NCBI GenBank assembly: GCA_002839765.1
Contig: PGYR01000016.1
Span: 1 to 56,336 of the forward strand
Origin: Ignavibacteriae bacterium HGW-Ignavibacteriae-4
GTDB taxonomy: Bacteria; Bacteroidota; Ignavibacteria; Kapaibacteriales; UBA2268
Direction of reading: 5' to 3'
Length of the DNA: 56,336 nucleotides
Translations under genes and position numbers: made by a program
Part shown: positions 39,191 to 49,202 of the stretch, one piece after another
Numbering within the stretch: the first letter of the stretch is position 1
How the letters are laid out: every line of letters starts with the position of its first letter
Notes under the pieces: model-generated
The model's database searches: none
The model's input: the letters and a program-made list of their open reading frames with translations, nothing else
Told to the model about the DNA's origin: nothing

Positions 39191-39619
39191 CTACACCTCG
39201 TGTATAATATGCTTTACCACGCCTTGAATTTCGAATTTGCAATAACCAGTTATTTCTATTGGTAAGTATTTTTGGTTGGCAGAGACTAGGTATATCTTGC
39301 CATCTTTGCGGCGGAATTTTTTGACTGTCATCTCACCATCGAGTGAAGCGACAACTATTTGACCTTCTTTGGGCTCAGTTTTGGCATCTACTATTAGTAT
39401 ATCGCCAGTGAATATGTTCTCGTCTATCATACTGTCGCCCGTCACACGAGCCATATACACATCTTTGCTACCGGTGAGCAATAGGTTACCTAAGTCGATA
39501 GATGTCTCAATCGATTGTAACATACCCGAACCGCGCTGTATGCTTGCTGGCAATAGCGGTGCTTCGAATGTGAACCCTTGCTTAGGGTTACCATATTTGT
39601 CTGCTCTTAATCTATACAT
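39191..39619 (-). CDS. UmuD-like S24 peptidase, catalytic dyad intact
   Basis: A 142-residue LexA/UmuD-type serine peptidase without a DNA-binding domain, so UmuD-like rather than LexA. The catalytic Ser is S63 in RVTGDSMIDENIFTGDILIVD and the Lys is K100 in LDGEMTVKKFRR, matching E. coli UmuD S60 and K97. Where UmuD is cut (Cys24-Gly25), this protein has PASIQRG, that is Arg29-Gly30, instead of Cys-Gly or Ala-Gly. UmuD normally joins UmuC to form DNA polymerase V in the SOS response, but no umuC is present here. It follows a catalytically dead paralogue and is preceded by a 7-bp inverted repeat that may be an operator. Confidence 0.88.
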   Translation of the reverse strand: MYRLRADKYGNPKQGFTFEAPLLPASIQRGSGMLQSIETSIDLGNLLLTGSKDVYMARVTGDSMIDENIFTGDILIVDAKTEPKEGQIVVASLDGEMTVKKFRRKDGKIYLVSANQKYLPIEITGYCKFEIQGVVKHIIHEV

Positions 39620-39635
39620 ATTCTTTTTCTATTTC

Positions 39636-39664
39636 GTTGGACTTACTGTTTGATTATGTCCAAC
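39636..39664 (-). promoter_or_regulatory. Inverted repeat upstream of the active UmuD-like gene
   Basis: GTTGGAC (39636-39642) and GTCCAAC (39658-39664) are perfect 7-base inverted arms with 15 bases between them, 17-45 bases before the ATG. This is a fit place for a repressor operator; a LexA-type site is possible, but no consensus for this lineage is known to me. Confidence 0.4.
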
Positions 39665-39679
39665 AATTGCTGTGCCGTT

Positions 39680-40108
39680 TTAGAGAGAGTGAATCACTTT
39701 GGTAACTGTACCGAGTATCTGAAAATCTATCAATGACTTATTCTCGTCCAAAGGCAAAAACTGTCCTAGATGAGACTCTAAGAATCTACTTCCATCTATC
39801 TCACGGTAGAATCTAACAGCCAAATCATCATTAACCGAAGCTATGACAAACTTGCCATCTGTTGGGTCAATAGACGTATCAATTATAAGAATATCGTTGT
39901 CTGATATTCCAACAGATTTGAGCATATCACCTTTTACTTTCACGAAGAAAGTTGCTGCTGGATGTTCTACTAAAAATTCGTTCAAATCTACTTCTCTGTC
40001 AACATCCCCCTCGACAGGAATAGGAATACCAGCCGCTACGGACATAGTAAAGAACGGAATCTTTCTATCGGATTTTGGTAAAAACCCAATTACTTCGAAT
40101 TGTTGCAT
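39680..40108 (-). CDS. UmuD-like protein lacking catalytic Ser and Lys
   Basis: A 142-residue UmuD homologue that aligns well with E. coli UmuD in the fold core (DLNEFLVEHPAATFFVK, then GISDNDILIID). The Ser position is Met62 (VKGDMLKSVG against the usual GDSM), and the Lys position is Arg99 (DLAVRFYRE against FTVKK). Self-cleavage by the Ser-Lys mechanism should therefore be impossible. It keeps a cleavage-like site, Ala26-Gly27 in MSVAAGIPIP, in the place of UmuD Cys24-Gly25. It precedes the active paralogue by 60 bases. It may be a substrate, a structural subunit of a heterodimer, or a degraded copy; the ORF shows no frameshift. Confidence 0.85.
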   Translation of the reverse strand: MQQFEVIGFLPKSDRKIPFFTMSVAAGIPIPVEGDVDREVDLNEFLVEHPAATFFVKVKGDMLKSVGISDNDILIIDTSIDPTDGKFVIASVNDDLAVRFYREIDGSRFLESHLGQFLPLDENKSLIDFQILGTVTKVIHSL

Positions 40109-40214
40109 TGTAAAACCTAAGAATTGTGGAAAACTTCCTTTATGCTATCTCAAATATATGATAATTATGAATATAATGCAAGTGAAAATGTTAACAAAGT
40201 TTATTTACCTTTTT

Positions 40215-42059
40215 CTATTTATAGATAAAGTATGTCTTCATTTTACCTTTACCTTTTATTTCTATTTCACCTCTCTCTACAAATTGAAATTCATGGTATT
40301 GCGATACGGTTTTCTTGAAACGTTCAGTGACTTGTACTTCACCTGCTACACTCGATGATTCCATACGCGAAGCAGTGTTAACAGCATCCGACCACATATC
40401 GTATATAAACTTTTTCTCCCCTATTACCCCAGCTACTACAGGTCCACAATCTAAACCTATTCGAACTTCAATTTTTGTATGATCTTCAGTGTAATATTCT
40501 TTCATTAATTCATTAACTTCAATTGCCATGTTAGCAGCCCTAAGTGTATTATCTTTCTGAACTACTGGGATGCCTGCAGCAGCCATATAACTATCACCAA
40601 TAGTTTTAATCTTTTCTAAGCCATATTTCTCAGCTATTGTATCATAACTAGTAAATATTTTATTTAGTGCTTCTACTATTCTTCTAGGGTTTGCATCTCG
40701 AGCTAATTCTGTAAAGTTAACTATATCAATAAATACGATTGAAGCTTCTGAGAAGTAATCAGATATAGGATGTTCTTTTTTCTTTAATCTTTTTGCAATA
40801 GAAATTGGCAATACGTTGAAGAGTAGTTTATCAGATTTCCTTCTCTGTATTACAATTACAATTATTATTATTATCATCAATAAAACAATAGCGAGTGAGA
40901 AATAAAGAATCAGTAGTTCCCTTTTTTCTTGTTCTATTATACTTGTTTTCTGTTTCTCTATTTCTTTTTGTTTTAGATCTTCTTCTCTTGATTTCTCTAG
41001 TATAGCAATTTTTTCATTATTCTTCTGAGAAAAGACTGAGTCTTCAAGTTTTTTAAAGCTTTCAAGAGCAAAATACGCTTTTTCGAATTTTTTTCGTTCT
41101 TTATAAATTTTATGAAGGTTTCTATATATTTGACTCAGTTCATCGAGGTTATTAAATTTTTCGAAAAGTTCTTTTGCTTTTAGCAAATTCTCTTCGGCCT
41201 TGTCTAAACATTTATCTTTAGTCAAATTAATTTTCTTTGATTCGTTTGCTTTTTTTAATGCTATAGAATCTTTTGCAAGAGTTAAAAATAATACTCCCAG
41301 ATTAGTAAGTTTATACGCCTGCCCCTTTATATCACCAATTTCTTCATTTATCTTCAAAGATTGGTGAAAGTAATCTAATGCTTCCGAATAATTCCCTTGA
41401 TTCAAATAAACACCACCAATGTTACCAATAATGACCGTTTTACCTGACTCTGAGCCTATCTCTTCGTATATATCTAGTGCTCTATGAAAATACTCCAATG
41501 ATTTATCATAATCTGATAAATTAGAATATATATTTCCAATATTTCCTAGGTTTATGGCTATTCCATTCTTTCTTCCAGTTTTCTCATTTATTTTTAATGC
41601 TTTATTATGATATTCTAAGGCTTTTGTATAATTGGATTGACTATTATATATATTTCCAATGTTCCCTAGGTTAAAGGCCATCCCTTTCTTGTCGCCCATT
41701 TTTTCATTTATTTCAAGAGAATTTTGATAATACTCTAAGGCTTTAGGATAATTTGACTTGGCCTTGTAGTTCACACCTAATGAATTATAACATATCGCCA
41801 GTCCCTTTTTCCATTTTAATTTTTCGGCAAGTTTTAACCCTTCTAAACCGTATTGAATACCTTTATCAGGATTAATACTAGAATTATTAAATGACAATTG
41901 TGCTCTTAATCTTACTTCACTTGTGTCTTTTTTAGCATTAGACAACTCATTGAGAAGTGAATCTATTTTTTTTTGGCCTTTAAGAGAGCCTGTCTCTGTC
42001 ATAACTTGACTAGAACTAATAAGGAGGGATATTACAATAATGTATAGAATTAACCTCAT
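40215..42059 (-). CDS. TPR-adenylate cyclase 1 (class III, transmembrane)
   Basis: A 614-residue protein. The N-terminal signal/anchor is LILYIIVISLLISSSQV. Residues of about 75-240 hold four 40-residue TPR units (for example GNIGNIYNSQSNYTKALEYHNKALKINEKTG). After an insertion (DSIALKKANESKKINL) and a last TPR-like pair comes a coiled region and one membrane helix (ELLILYFSLAIVLLMIIIIIVIVI). The cytosolic class III cyclase domain follows (about 425-614). Metal Asp are in VFIDIVNFTE and TIGDSYMAA; the adenine-specifying Lys (EKIKTIGD) and Asp (WSDAVN) and the catalytic Asn/Arg (VNTASRME) are all present. So it is probably an active adenylate cyclase making cAMP. It lies on the strand opposite to its three paralogues. 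Confidence 0.9.
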   Translation of the reverse strand: MRLILYIIVISLLISSSQVMTETGSLKGQKKIDSLLNELSNAKKDTSEVRLRAQLSFNNSSINPDKGIQYGLEGLKLAEKLKWKKGLAICYNSLGVNYKAKSNYPKALEYYQNSLEINEKMGDKKGMAFNLGNIGNIYNSQSNYTKALEYHNKALKINEKTGRKNGIAINLGNIGNIYSNLSDYDKSLEYFHRALDIYEEIGSESGKTVIIGNIGGVYLNQGNYSEALDYFHQSLKINEEIGDIKGQAYKLTNLGVLFLTLAKDSIALKKANESKKINLTKDKCLDKAEENLLKAKELFEKFNNLDELSQIYRNLHKIYKERKKFEKAYFALESFKKLEDSVFSQKNNEKIAILEKSREEDLKQKEIEKQKTSIIEQEKRELLILYFSLAIVLLMIIIIIVIVIQRRKSDKLLFNVLPISIAKRLKKKEHPISDYFSEASIVFIDIVNFTELARDANPRRIVEALNKIFTSYDTIAEKYGLEKIKTIGDSYMAAAGIPVVQKDNTLRAANMAIEVNELMKEYYTEDHTKIEVRIGLDCGPVVAGVIGEKKFIYDMWSDAVNTASRMESSSVAGEVQVTERFKKTVSQYHEFQFVERGEIEIKGKGKMKTYFIYK

Positions 42060-43202: not shown

Positions 43203-45176
43203 TTGAGATATTCACTTCTCATAGTATTCTTTATAGCTATTGCTATATTCACACCCCCTCTCCAATCACAAAATAGAGAGCAGGCAAAGCTAGAATTATT
43301 GAACGAAAAACTAAAAACGGCAGTAGAAGACACAAACAAAGTGACACTCCTCCAATTGATGTCGTTCCAATATAACTCTCTAGACCCAGAGTTAGGTATA
43401 AAATACGGAAATCAGTCCCTCACATTAGCAAAAAAACTTGGTTGGCAAAAAGGAATTGCTAAATCCTATAATTCAATAGGTGGTAATTTATTTGCTTTAG
43501 GAGATTTTGATGAGGCTCTGGATTATTTCCAAAAATCACTGAAGCTAAATGAGGAGAGCAAAGACTCTTCAGAAATAGCTAAAAATCTAACTAACATTGG
43601 TAATATATATTATAATTTATCCAACTTTTCAATAGCATTGAACTACTATCAGAAAGCTCTCAAAATAGATATTGAAATTGATGATAAGGAAGGAGAAGCT
43701 GATAATAATGGTAATATCGGAAATATATATAGTGATCTAACTAATTACAAAAGTGCACTAAAATACTATAGCAAAGCATTAAAAATACACGAAAAGATTA
43801 ATAATCGACGTGGCATAGCAACTATACTCGGTAATATGGGTACTGCGTATCTAGACTCAAAACAGTATGACAAAGCTTTGACGAATTTCAGCAAAGCATT
43901 AGAACTATGGGAACTATTTGGTAATAAATTCGGAATAGCTACTAATCTAGGTAATATAGCTAATACATATAATTACCTTTCTGATTATCAGTTAGCGATA
44001 ACTAATTATGAGAAAGCACTTGCAATTAATGAGGAAATAGGTAACAAGTTCGGAAGCGCTGCTATAATGGGTAATATGGGTGGACTATATTACAACCTAA
44101 CACGGGATACAGTAATATCTAGGTTGAAGGAAAAGAATAGCATAATTCATTTGGACAAAGAATACAATATAGAACGATCAATCAAATACAGCGAAAAAGC
44201 TACAGAACTAGCCGAATCAATTGGGTCTAGGGATATGCTCAGTGAGTTCTATGGTTATTTGGAAAAGGCATACGCACTTAAAGGAGATTTCAAAAGGGCG
44301 TACTCATATCAAAGAGAATGGATAGAACTAAGAGATTCTATTTTCAGTGTACAGAAGACAAAAGAAATTGCTAAACTCGAAGCGACAAAGCAAGGTGAGT
44401 TAAATGAGAAAGAAATAAAACTCAGAGATTTGGAACTTACCCGTAAGAATAATGAGCAATATGTACTATTTCTTGGATTTGGTGGTGCTGCTATTATGCT
44501 ATTGTTAGTGTTCTTCGAAAGAAGAAAATCAGAGAAATTACTTTTGAATATCCTACCTGCTAAAATCGCAAAACGATTAAAAAATAACGAAAAAAGAATA
44601 GCCGACAGATTTGAGAATACAGCGATTATTTTCCTTGATATAGTTGGTTTTACAAGTTTTTCGAAAGATACTGACCCTGTGAAAGTTGTCTCTGTTCTGA
44701 ACGAAATATTCACACATTTTGATAGTTTGACAAAGGAACATGGCTTAGAAAAAATAAAAACTATTGGTGATTGCTATATGGCAGCAGCTGGTTTACCTGA
44801 GCCACATCCTCAGCCAATATTGTCAACGGCAGAGTTTGCACTTGATGCTCAAAGGTTAATGCAAGATTACACTACAAAAGATGGTCATAAACTTCATTTC
44901 AGAATCGGAATAGATGCTGGACCAGTCGTGGCAGGAGTCATTGGTGAACGTAAATTTAGTTATGATTTGTGGGGAGATGCTGTAAACACGGCATCCCGAA
45001 TGGAAAGCACAGGGCTACCTAATGAGATACAAGTAACTGAGAATTTTGCAAAAAGTCTAGCAGGTTATAATATAACTTGTGAAGAACGTGGCGAAATAAA
45101 TATAAAAGGTAAAGGTATAATAAAGACTTATTTACTTAAAGATCATCCCAATAGAATTAAAAGGTCGGGTAAATAA
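43203..45176 (+). CDS. TPR-adenylate cyclase 2 (class III, transmembrane)
   Basis: A 657-residue paralogue of cyclase 1. TTG start at 43203, with GAGGG 4 bases upstream. A signal/anchor (LLIVFFIAIAIFTPPL) is followed by five 40-residue TPR units (for example GNIGNIYSDLTNYKSALKYY), then the insertion RDTVISRLKEKNSIIHLDK, a last TPR pair, a coiled segment, one membrane helix (FLGFGGAAIMLLLVFF) and the linker RRKSEKLLLNILP. The cyclase domain has metal Asp (FLDIVGFTSF and TIGDCYMAA), Lys in EKIKTIGD, Asp in WGDAVN, and VNTASRME, so adenylate specificity is expected. The next cyclase gene starts 4 bases after its stop. Confidence 0.92.
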   Translation: MRYSLLIVFFIAIAIFTPPLQSQNREQAKLELLNEKLKTAVEDTNKVTLLQLMSFQYNSLDPELGIKYGNQSLTLAKKLGWQKGIAKSYNSIGGNLFALGDFDEALDYFQKSLKLNEESKDSSEIAKNLTNIGNIYYNLSNFSIALNYYQKALKIDIEIDDKEGEADNNGNIGNIYSDLTNYKSALKYYSKALKIHEKINNRRGIATILGNMGTAYLDSKQYDKALTNFSKALELWELFGNKFGIATNLGNIANTYNYLSDYQLAITNYEKALAINEEIGNKFGSAAIMGNMGGLYYNLTRDTVISRLKEKNSIIHLDKEYNIERSIKYSEKATELAESIGSRDMLSEFYGYLEKAYALKGDFKRAYSYQREWIELRDSIFSVQKTKEIAKLEATKQGELNEKEIKLRDLELTRKNNEQYVLFLGFGGAAIMLLLVFFERRKSEKLLLNILPAKIAKRLKNNEKRIADRFENTAIIFLDIVGFTSFSKDTDPVKVVSVLNEIFTHFDSLTKEHGLEKIKTIGDCYMAAAGLPEPHPQPILSTAEFALDAQRLMQDYTTKDGHKLHFRIGIDAGPVVAGVIGERKFSYDLWGDAVNTASRMESTGLPNEIQVTENFAKSLAGYNITCEERGEINIKGKGIIKTYLLKDHPNRIKRSGK

Positions 45177-45180
45177 AGTA

Positions 45181-47121
45181 ATGAATAAAATGTACATATT
45201 CCTTATCTTAATCTTATACTTTTTGATTATAACCCCTTTAGTGCCTTCTAATAAAAGTGAGATTTCAATTGACTCACTAATGTCTGTATTACCAAAAGCA
45301 AAGGATGATACAAACAAAGTTAACTTGCTTTGTTCATTATCAACAAATTTTTATACAATTAATCCAGACTCAGGAATAAAATATGCTCATTTAGCTATTA
45401 GTTTATCAGACCAAATCGGCTGGAACAGAGGTAAAGCAAAGGCATATAACAGCCTAGGTGTTAACAGTTCGATTAAAAGTCATAATGATGAGGCTGTTGT
45501 TTACTTTAAAAAATCACTTGATATTTATAAGCAACTAGATTTTGTAGAAGGTGTATCTCAACAATTAGGTAATTTAGGCATTGTAAGCATGAACCTATCA
45601 AACTTTACAGCAGCTCTAGATTACTATCAACAAGCTCTAAAAATAGCCGAAAAAGATGGAATACAATCTAGCATAGCAAGACAAAATGGGAATATAGGTA
45701 TAGTATATACATATCTGAAAGATTATAATAAAGCATTAAAATATTATAGAAAATCTTTAGAATTGACTGAAAAGGAAATTGAAAAAGATAAAATTTCAAA
45801 ATTATTTGGAAACATTGCTTGGAATTACACTTTCCTAAAAGATTATGATAAAGCGTTGGATTATTACCAACGAGCTTTAAAACTAGATGAAGAATTAGGC
45901 AATGCCAAAAGTATAGCTATACGTTTAGGTAATATTGGCATCCTATATTGGGAAATGCTTGATTATGCTAAAGCTTATGATTATTATAATCGTGCTTTAA
46001 AAATGAACGAAGAGATAGGAAGTAAAAGTGGTATTGCTGTAAATCTAGGTAATCTAGCAGCAGTGCACTATATATTATCACAAGACAGTGTGATTCGAGA
46101 ATTAAAGCCGACGAACACTATCTTTAATTTAGATAAAGGATATAATCTAAAGAAATCTATCGAATATGCTCAAAAGTCAAAAGAAATTTCTCTAGAGATA
46201 GGTGATAAAAGGCAATTGATGGAAGTTTATAGCACTTTGGATAAAGCCTATGAATCTATAGGTAACTACGAAAATGCTTACAAATACCAAACAGATTGGG
46301 CTAAGCTAAAAGACTCTATCTTCAGTGTAGAGAAGACCACCGAAATTGCTAACCTAGAAGCTAAGAAAGAGAATGAAATTAAAGAAAAAGAGTTAAAACT
46401 AAAAGATTTGGAATTACTTAGAAAAGTAAATGAACAAACAGCTCTTTTTGTTGGGTTAGCTACAGTAGTGGTCTTACTACTTGTTATTTTTATGCAACGA
46501 CGTAAATCTGAGAAATTGCTCCTGAATATTATGCCTGAAAAGATTGCAAAAAGATTAAAAAGAAATGAGAAAAATATTGCCGATAGATTTGAGGAAGTTT
46601 CAATTATATTTGTGGATATCGTTGGCTTTACTTCCTATTCTAGAGGTACTGAACCTGAGGAAATTGTATCAGCTTTGAATGACATATTCACTAGGTTTGA
46701 TATTCTATCGATAAAACATGGATTAGAAAAAATAAAAACAATTGGTGATTGTTATATGGCAGTAGCTGGATTACCAGAGCCACACGATAATCATGCTTTG
46801 GCAACTGCTAGGTTCGCACTAGAAGCTAAGGACTTGATGCATAACTATGTAACCCCTGACGGACATAAGCTGCTATTCAGAATTGGTATAGACGCAGGCC
46901 CAGTAGTAGCCGGTGTGATAGGTGAATCAAAGTTCAGTTATGATTTATGGGGTGATGCTGTTAATATGGCATCTAGAATGGAAAGTACAGGGTTGCCAAA
47001 TGAAATACAAGTTACTGAGAACTTCGTTAATGAAGTTAAAGACTTCGGTATAAAGTACAAAGAACGCGGTGAAGTTGAAATCAAAGGAAAAGGTAAGGTA
47101 ATAACTTATCTACTTAAATAA
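45181..47121 (+). CDS. TPR-adenylate cyclase 3 (class III, transmembrane)
   Basis: A 646-residue protein, the second of three tandem cyclases. It has an N-terminal signal/anchor (MYIFLILILYFLIITPLV), five 40-residue TPR units (GNLGIVSMNLSNFTAALDYYQ and similar), the insertion QDSVIRELKPTNTIFNLDK, a final TPR pair, one membrane helix (ALFVGLATVVVLLLVIF) and the linker RRKSEKLLLNIMP. Catalytic residues are intact: VDIVGFTSY, TIGDCYMAV, EKIKTIGD, WGDAVN and MASRMES. It starts 4 bases after cyclase 2 and ends 8 bases before cyclase 4, so the three form one operon. Different TPR faces probably bind different partners. Confidence 0.92.
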   Translation: MNKMYIFLILILYFLIITPLVPSNKSEISIDSLMSVLPKAKDDTNKVNLLCSLSTNFYTINPDSGIKYAHLAISLSDQIGWNRGKAKAYNSLGVNSSIKSHNDEAVVYFKKSLDIYKQLDFVEGVSQQLGNLGIVSMNLSNFTAALDYYQQALKIAEKDGIQSSIARQNGNIGIVYTYLKDYNKALKYYRKSLELTEKEIEKDKISKLFGNIAWNYTFLKDYDKALDYYQRALKLDEELGNAKSIAIRLGNIGILYWEMLDYAKAYDYYNRALKMNEEIGSKSGIAVNLGNLAAVHYILSQDSVIRELKPTNTIFNLDKGYNLKKSIEYAQKSKEISLEIGDKRQLMEVYSTLDKAYESIGNYENAYKYQTDWAKLKDSIFSVEKTTEIANLEAKKENEIKEKELKLKDLELLRKVNEQTALFVGLATVVVLLLVIFMQRRKSEKLLLNIMPEKIAKRLKRNEKNIADRFEEVSIIFVDIVGFTSYSRGTEPEEIVSALNDIFTRFDILSIKHGLEKIKTIGDCYMAVAGLPEPHDNHALATARFALEAKDLMHNYVTPDGHKLLFRIGIDAGPVVAGVIGESKFSYDLWGDAVNMASRMESTGLPNEIQVTENFVNEVKDFGIKYKERGEVEIKGKGKVITYLLK

Positions 47122-47129
47122 GGAATAGA

Positions 47130-49202
47130 ATGAAAATAAGAGTTTTGCTTTTTATATTTACTTTAATCATATCTTCACAATCTCTATTGTCACAAAAACA
47201 AGGGCAAGAGAAGCTAGATTCATTACTCAAAGTATTACCTAATGCCAAAAAAGATACAGCACAAGTTAGCCTCTTGGCAAAACTATCAGCTAGTATTCAA
47301 GCCACTAACCCTGATAAAGGTATTAAGTATGGTGAGAGAGGCGTAAAGCTAGCCAATGAATTAGATTGGGAACAAGGGATTGCAGATAATAATGTTTCAA
47401 TTGGTTTAAACTATGCTTTAGGCAAATCAGATTTCACTAAAGGGAAGTTATATTTTGATAAAGCCCTAAAGACTTACGAAGATTTAGATCTCAAACTAGA
47501 ACTGGGTAAGACTTTAGTAAATATTGGTATAGTATATCAAAATCAATCGTTATACGATAAAGCACTCGAAAATTACGAAAAAGCTCTTGCTATATTCGAA
47601 CTATTAAAAGATAGAGAACGAATAGCAAGTACTTTGGGGAATCTAGGATTCATCTACAGGAGTCAATCAGACTACGCTAAAGCATTGGACTATTACCAGA
47701 GATCGTTATCTATATTTGAGAAATTGGGAATTAAAAGTGGTATAGCCACAAACCTTGGTAATATTGGGATGATTTATGATTATCAAAGTGACTTTACACG
47801 TGCACTTGAGTATTATAACAAAGCTATAAAAATAAATCAAGAACTTGGCGATAAGACTGGAGAAGCTGCATTATTATCAAATATTGGTTTAGTTTATTAC
47901 TTTCAGAATGATTATTCGCATGCGTTGGAGTATCTACAACGCTCAGTAGATATATTCGATGATATTGGCAATAAGTATGGAGTTGCCTCTATTCTTGGTA
48001 ATATTGGAATTATCTATCAAAAGCAAAACGAATTTTCTAAAGCTTTGGATAATTACAAAGAAGCAGTAAATATATACGAGGAGCTAGGTAACAAATCTAG
48101 CCTTGCAAGTAACTTGGGAAATATTGGCGAATTCTATTATAGTATTTCACAAGATTCGGTAATAATAAAAATAGAAAAAGAAACTAGTTTAATAAGTTCT
48201 AATAAACAAGTCAACTTAGAAAGATCAATTTCCTACTATAATCAAGCAATAAAATTACTTGAAGAGGTCGGCGAGCGTGATACTCGTTCTAGGTTCCTTA
48301 TGGGACTTTCAGATGCATATAAACTAAAAGGCGATTATGAAAAATCACTTGAGTTATATAAAGATTATATAGTTTTAAAAGACTCTGTATTTACTGAGAA
48401 ATCTCAATCACAAATCGCAAATCTCGAAGCAATTCGTGAAAACGAAATAAAGGACAAAGAGATTGAGATAAAAGATTTAGAGATTACACAATCGCAAAAC
48501 GAACGTTACGCTGTAATCGGGGGGGCAATAGCAGTAGGATTCATTGCTATTATTATATTCAGACAAAGACAAAGATCAGAAAAGTTATTGCTTAATATTC
48601 TCCCTTTGAAAATTGCAAAAAGATTAAAGAAAAAAGAACGACTGATAGCAGATGATATAGAGTGTGCGAGTATTGTCTTCATCGATTTGGTTGGTTTTAC
48701 AGCATATTCCAAAGACCGTAAGGCATCAGATGTATTGCAAATGCTAAATGATGTTTTCGATAAGTTTGATGGACTCATTATCAAATATGGTTTAGAGAAG
48801 ATAAAAACAATTGGTGATGGGTATATGGCTGCTGCTGGTGTACCTGAGCCGTGTGATGACCATTCGGTAAGAGCAACTAACTTCTCATTAGATATACATA
48901 TAGTTCTGAAGGAAATCAATGCAAAAATGAAGACAGATATTCATGCGAGAGTTGGTATAGAATCGGGTCCAATTGTAGCTGGAGTAATCGGAGAAATGAA
49001 ATTCGCTTACGATCTATGGGGAGATTCAGTAAACACCGCATCTAGAATGGAGTCAACTGGTACTCCTGGGTTAGTGCATATATCATCAAATGTGAAAAGA
49101 GAACTAGATACGCAGACTCATAATTTTAGGTTCGAAGAACTACCGCCGATGGAAGTAAAAGGAAAGGGTGAAATGATTACTTATATGGTTCATAGAAAGT
49201 AG
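47130..49202 (+). CDS. TPR-adenylate cyclase 4 (class III, transmembrane)
   Basis: A 690-residue protein, the longest of the family. A signal peptide/anchor (KIRVLLFIFTLIISSQSLLS) leads into six 40-residue TPR units (GNIGMIYDYQSDFTRALEYYN and similar), then the insertion QDSVIIKIEKETSLISSNK, a last TPR pair (LKGDYEKSLELYKDYIVLKDS), one membrane helix (VIGGAIAVGFIAIIIF) and the linker RQRSEKLLLNILP. The cyclase domain is the most diverged of the four, but keeps FIDLVGFTAY, EKIKTIGDGYMAA, WGDSVN and NTASRMES. It is the third cyclase of the operon; a small membrane protein gene follows after one base. Confidence 0.92.
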   Translation: MKIRVLLFIFTLIISSQSLLSQKQGQEKLDSLLKVLPNAKKDTAQVSLLAKLSASIQATNPDKGIKYGERGVKLANELDWEQGIADNNVSIGLNYALGKSDFTKGKLYFDKALKTYEDLDLKLELGKTLVNIGIVYQNQSLYDKALENYEKALAIFELLKDRERIASTLGNLGFIYRSQSDYAKALDYYQRSLSIFEKLGIKSGIATNLGNIGMIYDYQSDFTRALEYYNKAIKINQELGDKTGEAALLSNIGLVYYFQNDYSHALEYLQRSVDIFDDIGNKYGVASILGNIGIIYQKQNEFSKALDNYKEAVNIYEELGNKSSLASNLGNIGEFYYSISQDSVIIKIEKETSLISSNKQVNLERSISYYNQAIKLLEEVGERDTRSRFLMGLSDAYKLKGDYEKSLELYKDYIVLKDSVFTEKSQSQIANLEAIRENEIKDKEIEIKDLEITQSQNERYAVIGGAIAVGFIAIIIFRQRQRSEKLLLNILPLKIAKRLKKKERLIADDIECASIVFIDLVGFTAYSKDRKASDVLQMLNDVFDKFDGLIIKYGLEKIKTIGDGYMAAAGVPEPCDDHSVRATNFSLDIHIVLKEINAKMKTDIHARVGIESGPIVAGVIGEMKFAYDLWGDSVNTASRMESTGTPGLVHISSNVKRELDTQTHNFRFEELPPMEVKGKGEMITYMVHRK

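Follow-up and report, generated by a model that had tools for sequence, protein, structure and literature searches.

Introduction

The S24 switches LexA, UmuD, and CI are usually described as proteins that cut themselves. In Escherichia coli UmuD, a dimer, one small chain carries both an arm with the cut site and a catalytic Ser-Lys dyad. Cutting in trans is known from mutants of this protein: the available text of PMC5342242 reports that UmuD S60A, which is dead and cuttable, is cut in trans by UmuD delta18 in heterodimers with RecA on single-stranded DNA (RecA:ssDNA), and that UmuD lacking these 18 residues is itself not appreciably cut. In this study, we analyzed two adjacent UmuD-like genes, here named U and D, on contig PGYR01000016.1 of Ignavibacteriae bacterium HGW-Ignavibacteriae-4; the whole stretch of 56,336 nucleotides (nt) is referred to as the window. 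A preliminary description of the window had placed the catalytic dyad and the cleavage site on different proteins. Our analysis of the family to which this genome belongs, in a little-studied group of bacteria, indicates that U and D are natural genes that probably divide the UmuD DNA-damage switch between a substrate (U) and a protease (D) that cuts in trans.

The pair has the fold and size of E. coli UmuD, the arm with a cut site about 25 residues in, and the Ser-Lys dyad; the dimer is a property of UmuD and is predicted here. It differs from E. coli UmuD in that separate natural genes encode a dead substrate and a site-less protease, stay together throughout a family, and show no link to umuC. 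The window pair resembles the laboratory pair of UmuD S60A and delta18, for which a trans cut in a heterodimer was shown with mutants (PMC5342242, in its available text); hence, U is taken as the substrate and D as the protease. The S24 domain, the Ala-Gly bond, and the Ser-Lys dyad are shared with LexA, including the non-canonical LexA of Bacteroidetes (available text of PMC8565304), from which U and D differ in having no DNA-binding domain and in spreading the functions over two chains. UmuDAb of Acinetobacter, as cited through the same text, is a UmuD-like protein with a duty beyond DNA polymerase V (pol V), as is proposed here for the pair; it differs in being a single self-cutting chain with a DNA-binding domain. 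The Csp pseudoproteases of Clostridioides difficile are likewise dead relatives of proteases with a function of their own, as far as the available text of PMC12880746 describes them; they belong to another protease family and their dead members transduce signals, whereas in the pair the dead partner is apparently the substrate. No natural split S24 pair, with a conserved division into a dead substrate and a site-less protease, was found in open-licence papers.

UmuD-like proteins encoded in the window

U is followed by D on the same strand, with 60 nt between them and 142 codons in each (Table 1). Both open reading frames (ORFs) lie where the preliminary description had put them, and each residue that it named was correct when the codons were read directly and the proteins were aligned with MAFFT. 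Pfam finds a single Peptidase_S24 domain and nothing further in each protein, above the curated cut-off of 23.3 bits (U 60.2, D 99.2 bits), in chains of about 140 residues, a UmuD-like size. No helix-turn-helix or other DNA-binding domain was detected by Pfam in U or D, unlike in LexA and S24 repressors. The NCBIfam UmuD model is the top match for both, yet under its 110-bit cut-off (D 99.5, U 91.3). By sequence comparison with solved structures, UmuD or UmuD' is closest to both. A fold search, run with the AlphaFold model of U (mean predicted local distance difference test score (pLDDT) 78.8), returned UmuD' (1umu) first; in the AlphaFold model of D the core is well predicted and the arm is of low confidence (residues 1-36 below 50).

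Three features mark UmuD: a Ser-Lys dyad, a Cys/Ala-Gly site in the arm, and a gene that lies beside umuC or tracks it. The first is lacking in U (M62, R99) and present in D (S63, K100), the second is present in U (A26-G27) and lacking in D (R29-G30), and the third is absent for the pair, both in the window and across 54 genomes. The phmmer alignment of U with E. coli UmuD has no gap across the active site and sets M62 opposite the catalytic Ser. In the MAFFT alignment, the residues flanking the cut bond (P1-P1') are A-G in U, with M in the Ser column and R in the Lys column; D reads R-G, S, and K. Neither alignment gives a Ser-Lys dyad in the window's U, in agreement with the preliminary description. 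A shifted dyad was considered for the window's U and rejected: the motif reads GDMLKS, the nearest Ser is three residues on, and the phmmer alignment is gap-free there. Another nucleophile in the Ser column is ruled out as a general answer by the relatives that have Ala or Phe in it.

Table 1. Positions of U, D, and their diagnostic residues in the window
Feature	Position	Strand	Evidence
Gene U, UmuD-like, 142 aa, presumed substrate; dyad lost, cleavage site kept	39680..40108	-	ORF, S24 domain, alignment, dN/dS
U Ala26-Gly27, place of the cut	40028..40033	-	Sequence; A-G in 38/38 U proteins
U Met62 at the catalytic Ser	39923..39925	-	Sequence and alignment
U Arg99 at the catalytic Lys	39812..39814	-	Sequence and alignment
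Gene D, UmuD-like, 142 aa, presumed protease; Ser-Lys dyad intact, own cleavage site lost	39191..39619	-	ORF, S24 domain, alignment, dN/dS
D Ser63, catalytic nucleophile	39431..39433	-	Sequence; Ser in 36/36 D proteins
D Lys100, catalytic base	39320..39322	-	Sequence; Lys in 36/36 D proteins
D Arg29-Gly30 at the would-be cut	39530..39535	-	Sequence; placed by alignment, D arm poorly conserved
aa, amino acids; dN/dS, ratio of nonsynonymous to synonymous substitution rates.

Complementary residue loss in relatives

A tblastn search with U found relatives in 37 of the 54 genomes of the window's family, and the pair is also present in one genome of another family (G092; G, L, and C numbers are our handles for genomes, loci, and contigs). 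A second S24 gene lies directly downstream of U on the same strand in 35 of the 37. A D-type gene is present in G019 and G021 but elsewhere in the genome; G009 and G035, which stand outside the 37-genome count, have D fragments at contig ends and no U. Thus, U and D co-occur and adjoin in relatives, a check that the preliminary description had called for. Two of the 35 adjacent D genes, those of G053 (contig edge) and G047 (broken frame), are damaged in the assembly and were excluded from the tree and the residue counts. Alignments A1 and A2 hold 34 of the 37 U rows and 32 of the 35 D rows, respectively.

The cut bond is Ala-Gly in all 38 U proteins, at identities to the window's U of 38-58% outside its genus (34 of the 37 family rows). 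The Ser column of the same 38 proteins holds Ala in 10, Asn in 8, Ser in 8, Met in 4, Asp in 3, Glu in 3, and Phe in 2, and the Lys column holds Lys in 26 and Arg in 12. The D proteins show the reverse: all 36 that were read have both Ser and Lys, and 28 have lost their own bond, with Ala-Gly in the other 8. By column entropy, P1 and P1' are among the 14 invariant positions of 128 in the family U rows (n = 37), with the Ser column ranking 108th; in the family D rows (n = 35), Ser and Lys are among the 16 invariant positions of 126, with P1 ranking 119th. Both proteins were read for 36 pairs, every one of which has A-G in U together with S and K in D. The U Ser and the D bond are both lost in 22 of these pairs, the U Ser alone in seven, the D bond alone in six, and neither in one (G026).

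S24 proteins from other loci served as a control. Ser and Lys are kept in 81 of 83 rows from 76 other loci of cellular genomes and in 80 of 80 viral rows (kept from 384 viral relatives); the patterns used in the control scan did not include the Ser, and at least one of the 83 rows (L136) is an ordinary UmuD from a family genome that lacks the pair. Since the decay of U and D is complementary across the family, while other S24 rows keep the dyad, the pattern goes beyond chance. The division of functions between U and D is not a one-off and is widespread in the family.

Distribution, history and selection of the pair

Among 123 genomes of the order, scores at the level of U (184 bits or more; next 149.5) are confined to the family and G092, and the same restriction holds in 391 sampled genomes of the class. 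A D profile run on 395 sampled genomes of the phylum, a list without G092, gave seven rows at 194.9 bits or above, all from the family, and 130.1 bits for the next. Named carriers of the pair include the Ignavibacteriae metagenome-assembled genome (MAG) HKST-UBA125 and a Candidatus Kapaibacterium MAG, which places the family near Kapaibacterium in Bacteroidota. The contig JAGXRP010000035.1 (L090) is labelled Desulfobulbaceae and carries the pair of the family genome G045; its label looks wrong. Phage records gave 49 matches, and among those listed with an annotation most carry the name UmuD. PADLOC returned no match. The surroundings were compared at 24 loci, 21 of them around U or the pair, and the commonest non-S24 neighbor family occurs in 5 of the 24; the two genes therefore stay together while their surroundings change.

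In a maximum-likelihood tree of 114 S24 proteins, which has few columns and many open forks, one branch (99/91) separates the U proteins and two remnants from all other proteins, and another (100/99) does so for the D proteins. The letters X were removed for this tree and 14 of the 83 outside rows were included. G092 branches first in both the U clade (rest 100/97) and the D clade (rest 94/95), although not in the FastTree of D. Because its U is intact and branches first, the U Ser appears to have been lost inside the family. Parsimony gives at least five label changes for the loss of the U Ser, or 10 losses if it was never regained (FastTree). The two species of genus g11 have a U-like remnant without dyad and without Ala-Gly; no D was found in these genomes, and the Pfam model gives no other S24 gene in them. 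As both species belong to one genus, they may share one and the same event.

Purifying selection on U and D is strong: in comparisons between congeners, made in six genera, dN/dS is 0.014-0.075 for U and 0.006-0.116 for D, and none of the 37 U genes contains an internal stop codon. A pseudogene was rejected for U on the dN/dS values and the open frames.

Proposed division into substrate and protease

We infer that U and D, both of S24 fold, probably form a U-D heterodimer in which the Ser-Lys active site of D would cut the arm bond Ala26-Gly27 of U in trans. U would be unable to cut itself, and the window's D would lack a bond that can be cut where UmuD has one. RecA filaments on damaged DNA may trigger the cut, in analogy to UmuD, LexA, and CI, and the cleaved U' together with D would be the active state. 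The output may include UmuC where the genome has one; it could not be a Y-family polymerase where there is none, and in such genomes our first guess would be that the pair acts directly on the replicase or its clamp. As for the preliminary description, its division into substrate and protease gains from the missing dyad in the window's U and from the co-occurrence in relatives, and is qualified by an incomplete split in 14 of the 36 pairs; its framing around a target polymerase found no support (see below).

Several observations weigh against this division. Seven U proteins of the family keep Ser and Lys (G026, G033, G034, G050-G053), Lys persists in the Lys column of 26 of the 38 U proteins, and A-G is retained by eight D proteins; in G026 both proteins are intact. 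The D arm aligns poorly, so the lost site of D rests on alignment, and the invariant A-G could mean that the site is bound tightly and not cut. Genomes with the pair also encode other S24 proteins that have Ser and Lys, and a second protease for U is possible. No RecA was found in G019, a 92% complete genome with the pair; RecA is encoded in the window genome, G013, G024, and G026. Neither Bacteroidetes LexA motif is found upstream of U beyond three genomes of the window's genus.

Upstream regions and neighboring genes

GGA-N5-TCC is given as a LexA motif of Bacteroidetes in the available text of PMC8565304. It is matched by GGAAAACTTCC (+ strand) at 40128-40138 of the window, just upstream of U. 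The motif precedes U in 3 of the 37 genomes, namely the window genome and, from its genus, G042 and G043; G041 and the other 33 lack it. CTAA-N5-TTAG precedes U in 0 of 37. In the window's genus, the 160-nt regions preceding one umuC, one dinB, and two CI-type S24 genes contain neither motif, and no common site was seen by eye upstream of recA. An SOS operator upstream of U was rejected on these counts.

In 24 of the 37 genomes, a run of at least five G lies in the 120 nt before U (e.g., L360 1501-1511 and L355 1501-1511). Such a run precedes 3 of 196 other genes at these loci and none of 35 D genes or 12 ordinary umuD genes; the window's genus lacks the run. A regulon marked by the G run was rejected after two genomes, in which most other pattern matches lie inside genes or far from a start. 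Upstream of the pair, the window contains four related genes, which fall into one neighbor family, at 40218-42059 (-), 43203-45173, 45181-47118, and 47130-48500 (+); the first of these encodes TPR repeats and a class III cyclase domain.

Relation to umuC and Y-family polymerases

The preliminary description had found neither umuC nor imuB in the window, and this is borne out: the only two PF00817 matches of the genome are on contigs C14 and C100, and the umuC that the genome does have is on another contig. No Y-family domain was matched in seven genomes with the pair (G011, G013, G019, G024-G027), of which G013 and G026 are 99% complete; incomplete assemblies call for caution here, as RecA itself was not found in G019. 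Four of the seven were checked for DnaE and gave one match each. When umuC presence was set at E 1e-40 or better in the 54 genomes, 29 had both the pair and umuC, 8 the pair only, 12 umuC only, and 5 neither (Fisher's test, which ignores shared descent, p 0.73). For ordinary UmuD (Ala-Gly and dyad, no extra domain) against umuC, 37 genomes had both, 1 and 4 had one alone, and 12 had neither (p 6e-8), the ordinary-UmuD list being compiled by hand among the matches listed, with 13 of 38 read as sequence. Where the pair and umuC share a genome, they lie on different contigs (29 of 29). Given the pair genomes without a Y-family match and the lack of tracking of umuC, pol V cannot be the pair's only output, and the preliminary description's framing around a target polymerase is not supported.

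These results also bear on a reading that is compatible with trans-cutting and differs from ours in the output, namely that U and D are the UmuD'2 of pol V in heterodimeric form, with the U' arm inserted into UmuC and D as the other subunit. In the asymmetric pol V model in the available text of PMC12926913, the cleft of UmuC takes up the arm of one UmuD' while its tail holds the second subunit, and the window genome has umuC and no ordinary umuD that we saw. The seven genomes without a Y-family match, the contrast between the association of the pair (p 0.73) and that of ordinary UmuD (p 6e-8), and the separate contigs make it rather doubtful.

In the family, ordinary UmuD often has no adjoining umuC and is followed directly by a gene for a protein of about 390-400 aa (L047, L049, L052, L053, L057, and L058); the L047 copy, the one tested, is a class-III aminotransferase. 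In G042, of the window's genus, a CI-type helix-turn-helix S24 gene lies about 500 nt upstream of umuC. A Magnetococcales MAG (L150 3013-5455) has LexA, a UmuD-like gene, and umuC in a row; the UmuD-like protein has Asp in the Ser position and Val-Gly at its cut site, an independent loss of the dyad beside an apparently intact LexA.

Possible regulation without cutting, and other S24 proteins

U could be a pseudo-substrate regulator of D that is never cut: its arm may sit in the D active site and block or tune it, or U may hand D or some third protein over to ClpXP, as UmuD does with UmuD'. A mere binding arm would likewise preserve the residues around the site, and activation of a live enzyme by its dead paralog is described for a different enzyme family (available text of PMC5201418). 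However, it is not clear why an inhibitor that stays uncut should need precisely Ala followed by Gly, both invariant in 38 of 38 proteins, with 38-58% identity to the window's U outside its genus, and the loss of the D bond in 28 of 36 is as expected if cutting is wanted and self-cutting is not. We consider this explanation unlikely.

The cut of U might instead be made by another S24 protein of the cell, be it an ordinary UmuD, the repressor of CI type, or the product of a further S24 gene, with D having a separate target. The window genome has six S24 matches, and 1 to 9 were found in each of 12 family genomes scanned; in G013, G019, and G024-G027 the further S24 genes mostly have Ser and Lys in place, as judged by eye. 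Against this, D adjoins U in 35 of 37 genomes, the U site is lost where no D was found (two genomes of one genus), and no ordinary UmuD was found among the S24 genes read in G013, G019, G024-G027, and the window genome, all of which keep the U site. Such a cutter is improbable in our view. Still less can be said for U as a decaying copy without a role, which is highly improbable: its catalytic residues are lost and its Ser column holds several residue types, but its dN/dS (0.014-0.075), its frames, free of internal stops in 37 of 37, and its invariant cut site are not those of a decaying gene.

A further class of S24 genes in the family (L302-L310, L313-L315, L381, L386, and L389) consists of single genes with Ser and Lys and without an Ala-Gly site, as read by eye. 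In the tree, 11 rows of this class make up a clade separate from D, although support is modest (81/94); the class is perhaps another trans-protease or a UmuD'-like protein. The window genome also has a second dead S24 gene, on contig C94 (L005 1477-2347), in which the place of the Ser reads Glu (GDEM); a 115-codon gene that overlaps its start looks helix-turn-helix-like by eye and has no Pfam match.

Conclusion

Under the division of U as substrate and D as protease, the pair may also be a dedicated damage relay, in which RecA-triggered D mainly cuts U and the output of U' is something other than translesion polymerases, a suggestion that we make tentatively. That output could act, for example, on the replicase, its clamp, or a regulator, in a pair that is retained by bacteria without a Y-family polymerase. 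If U and D do divide the switch, cutting and being cut would be separated on two chains, the amounts of each could set the response, and the pair would be a natural test of cutting in cis versus in trans. The genomes without a Y-family polymerase offer a way to test which role a UmuD-like protein has outside pol V.
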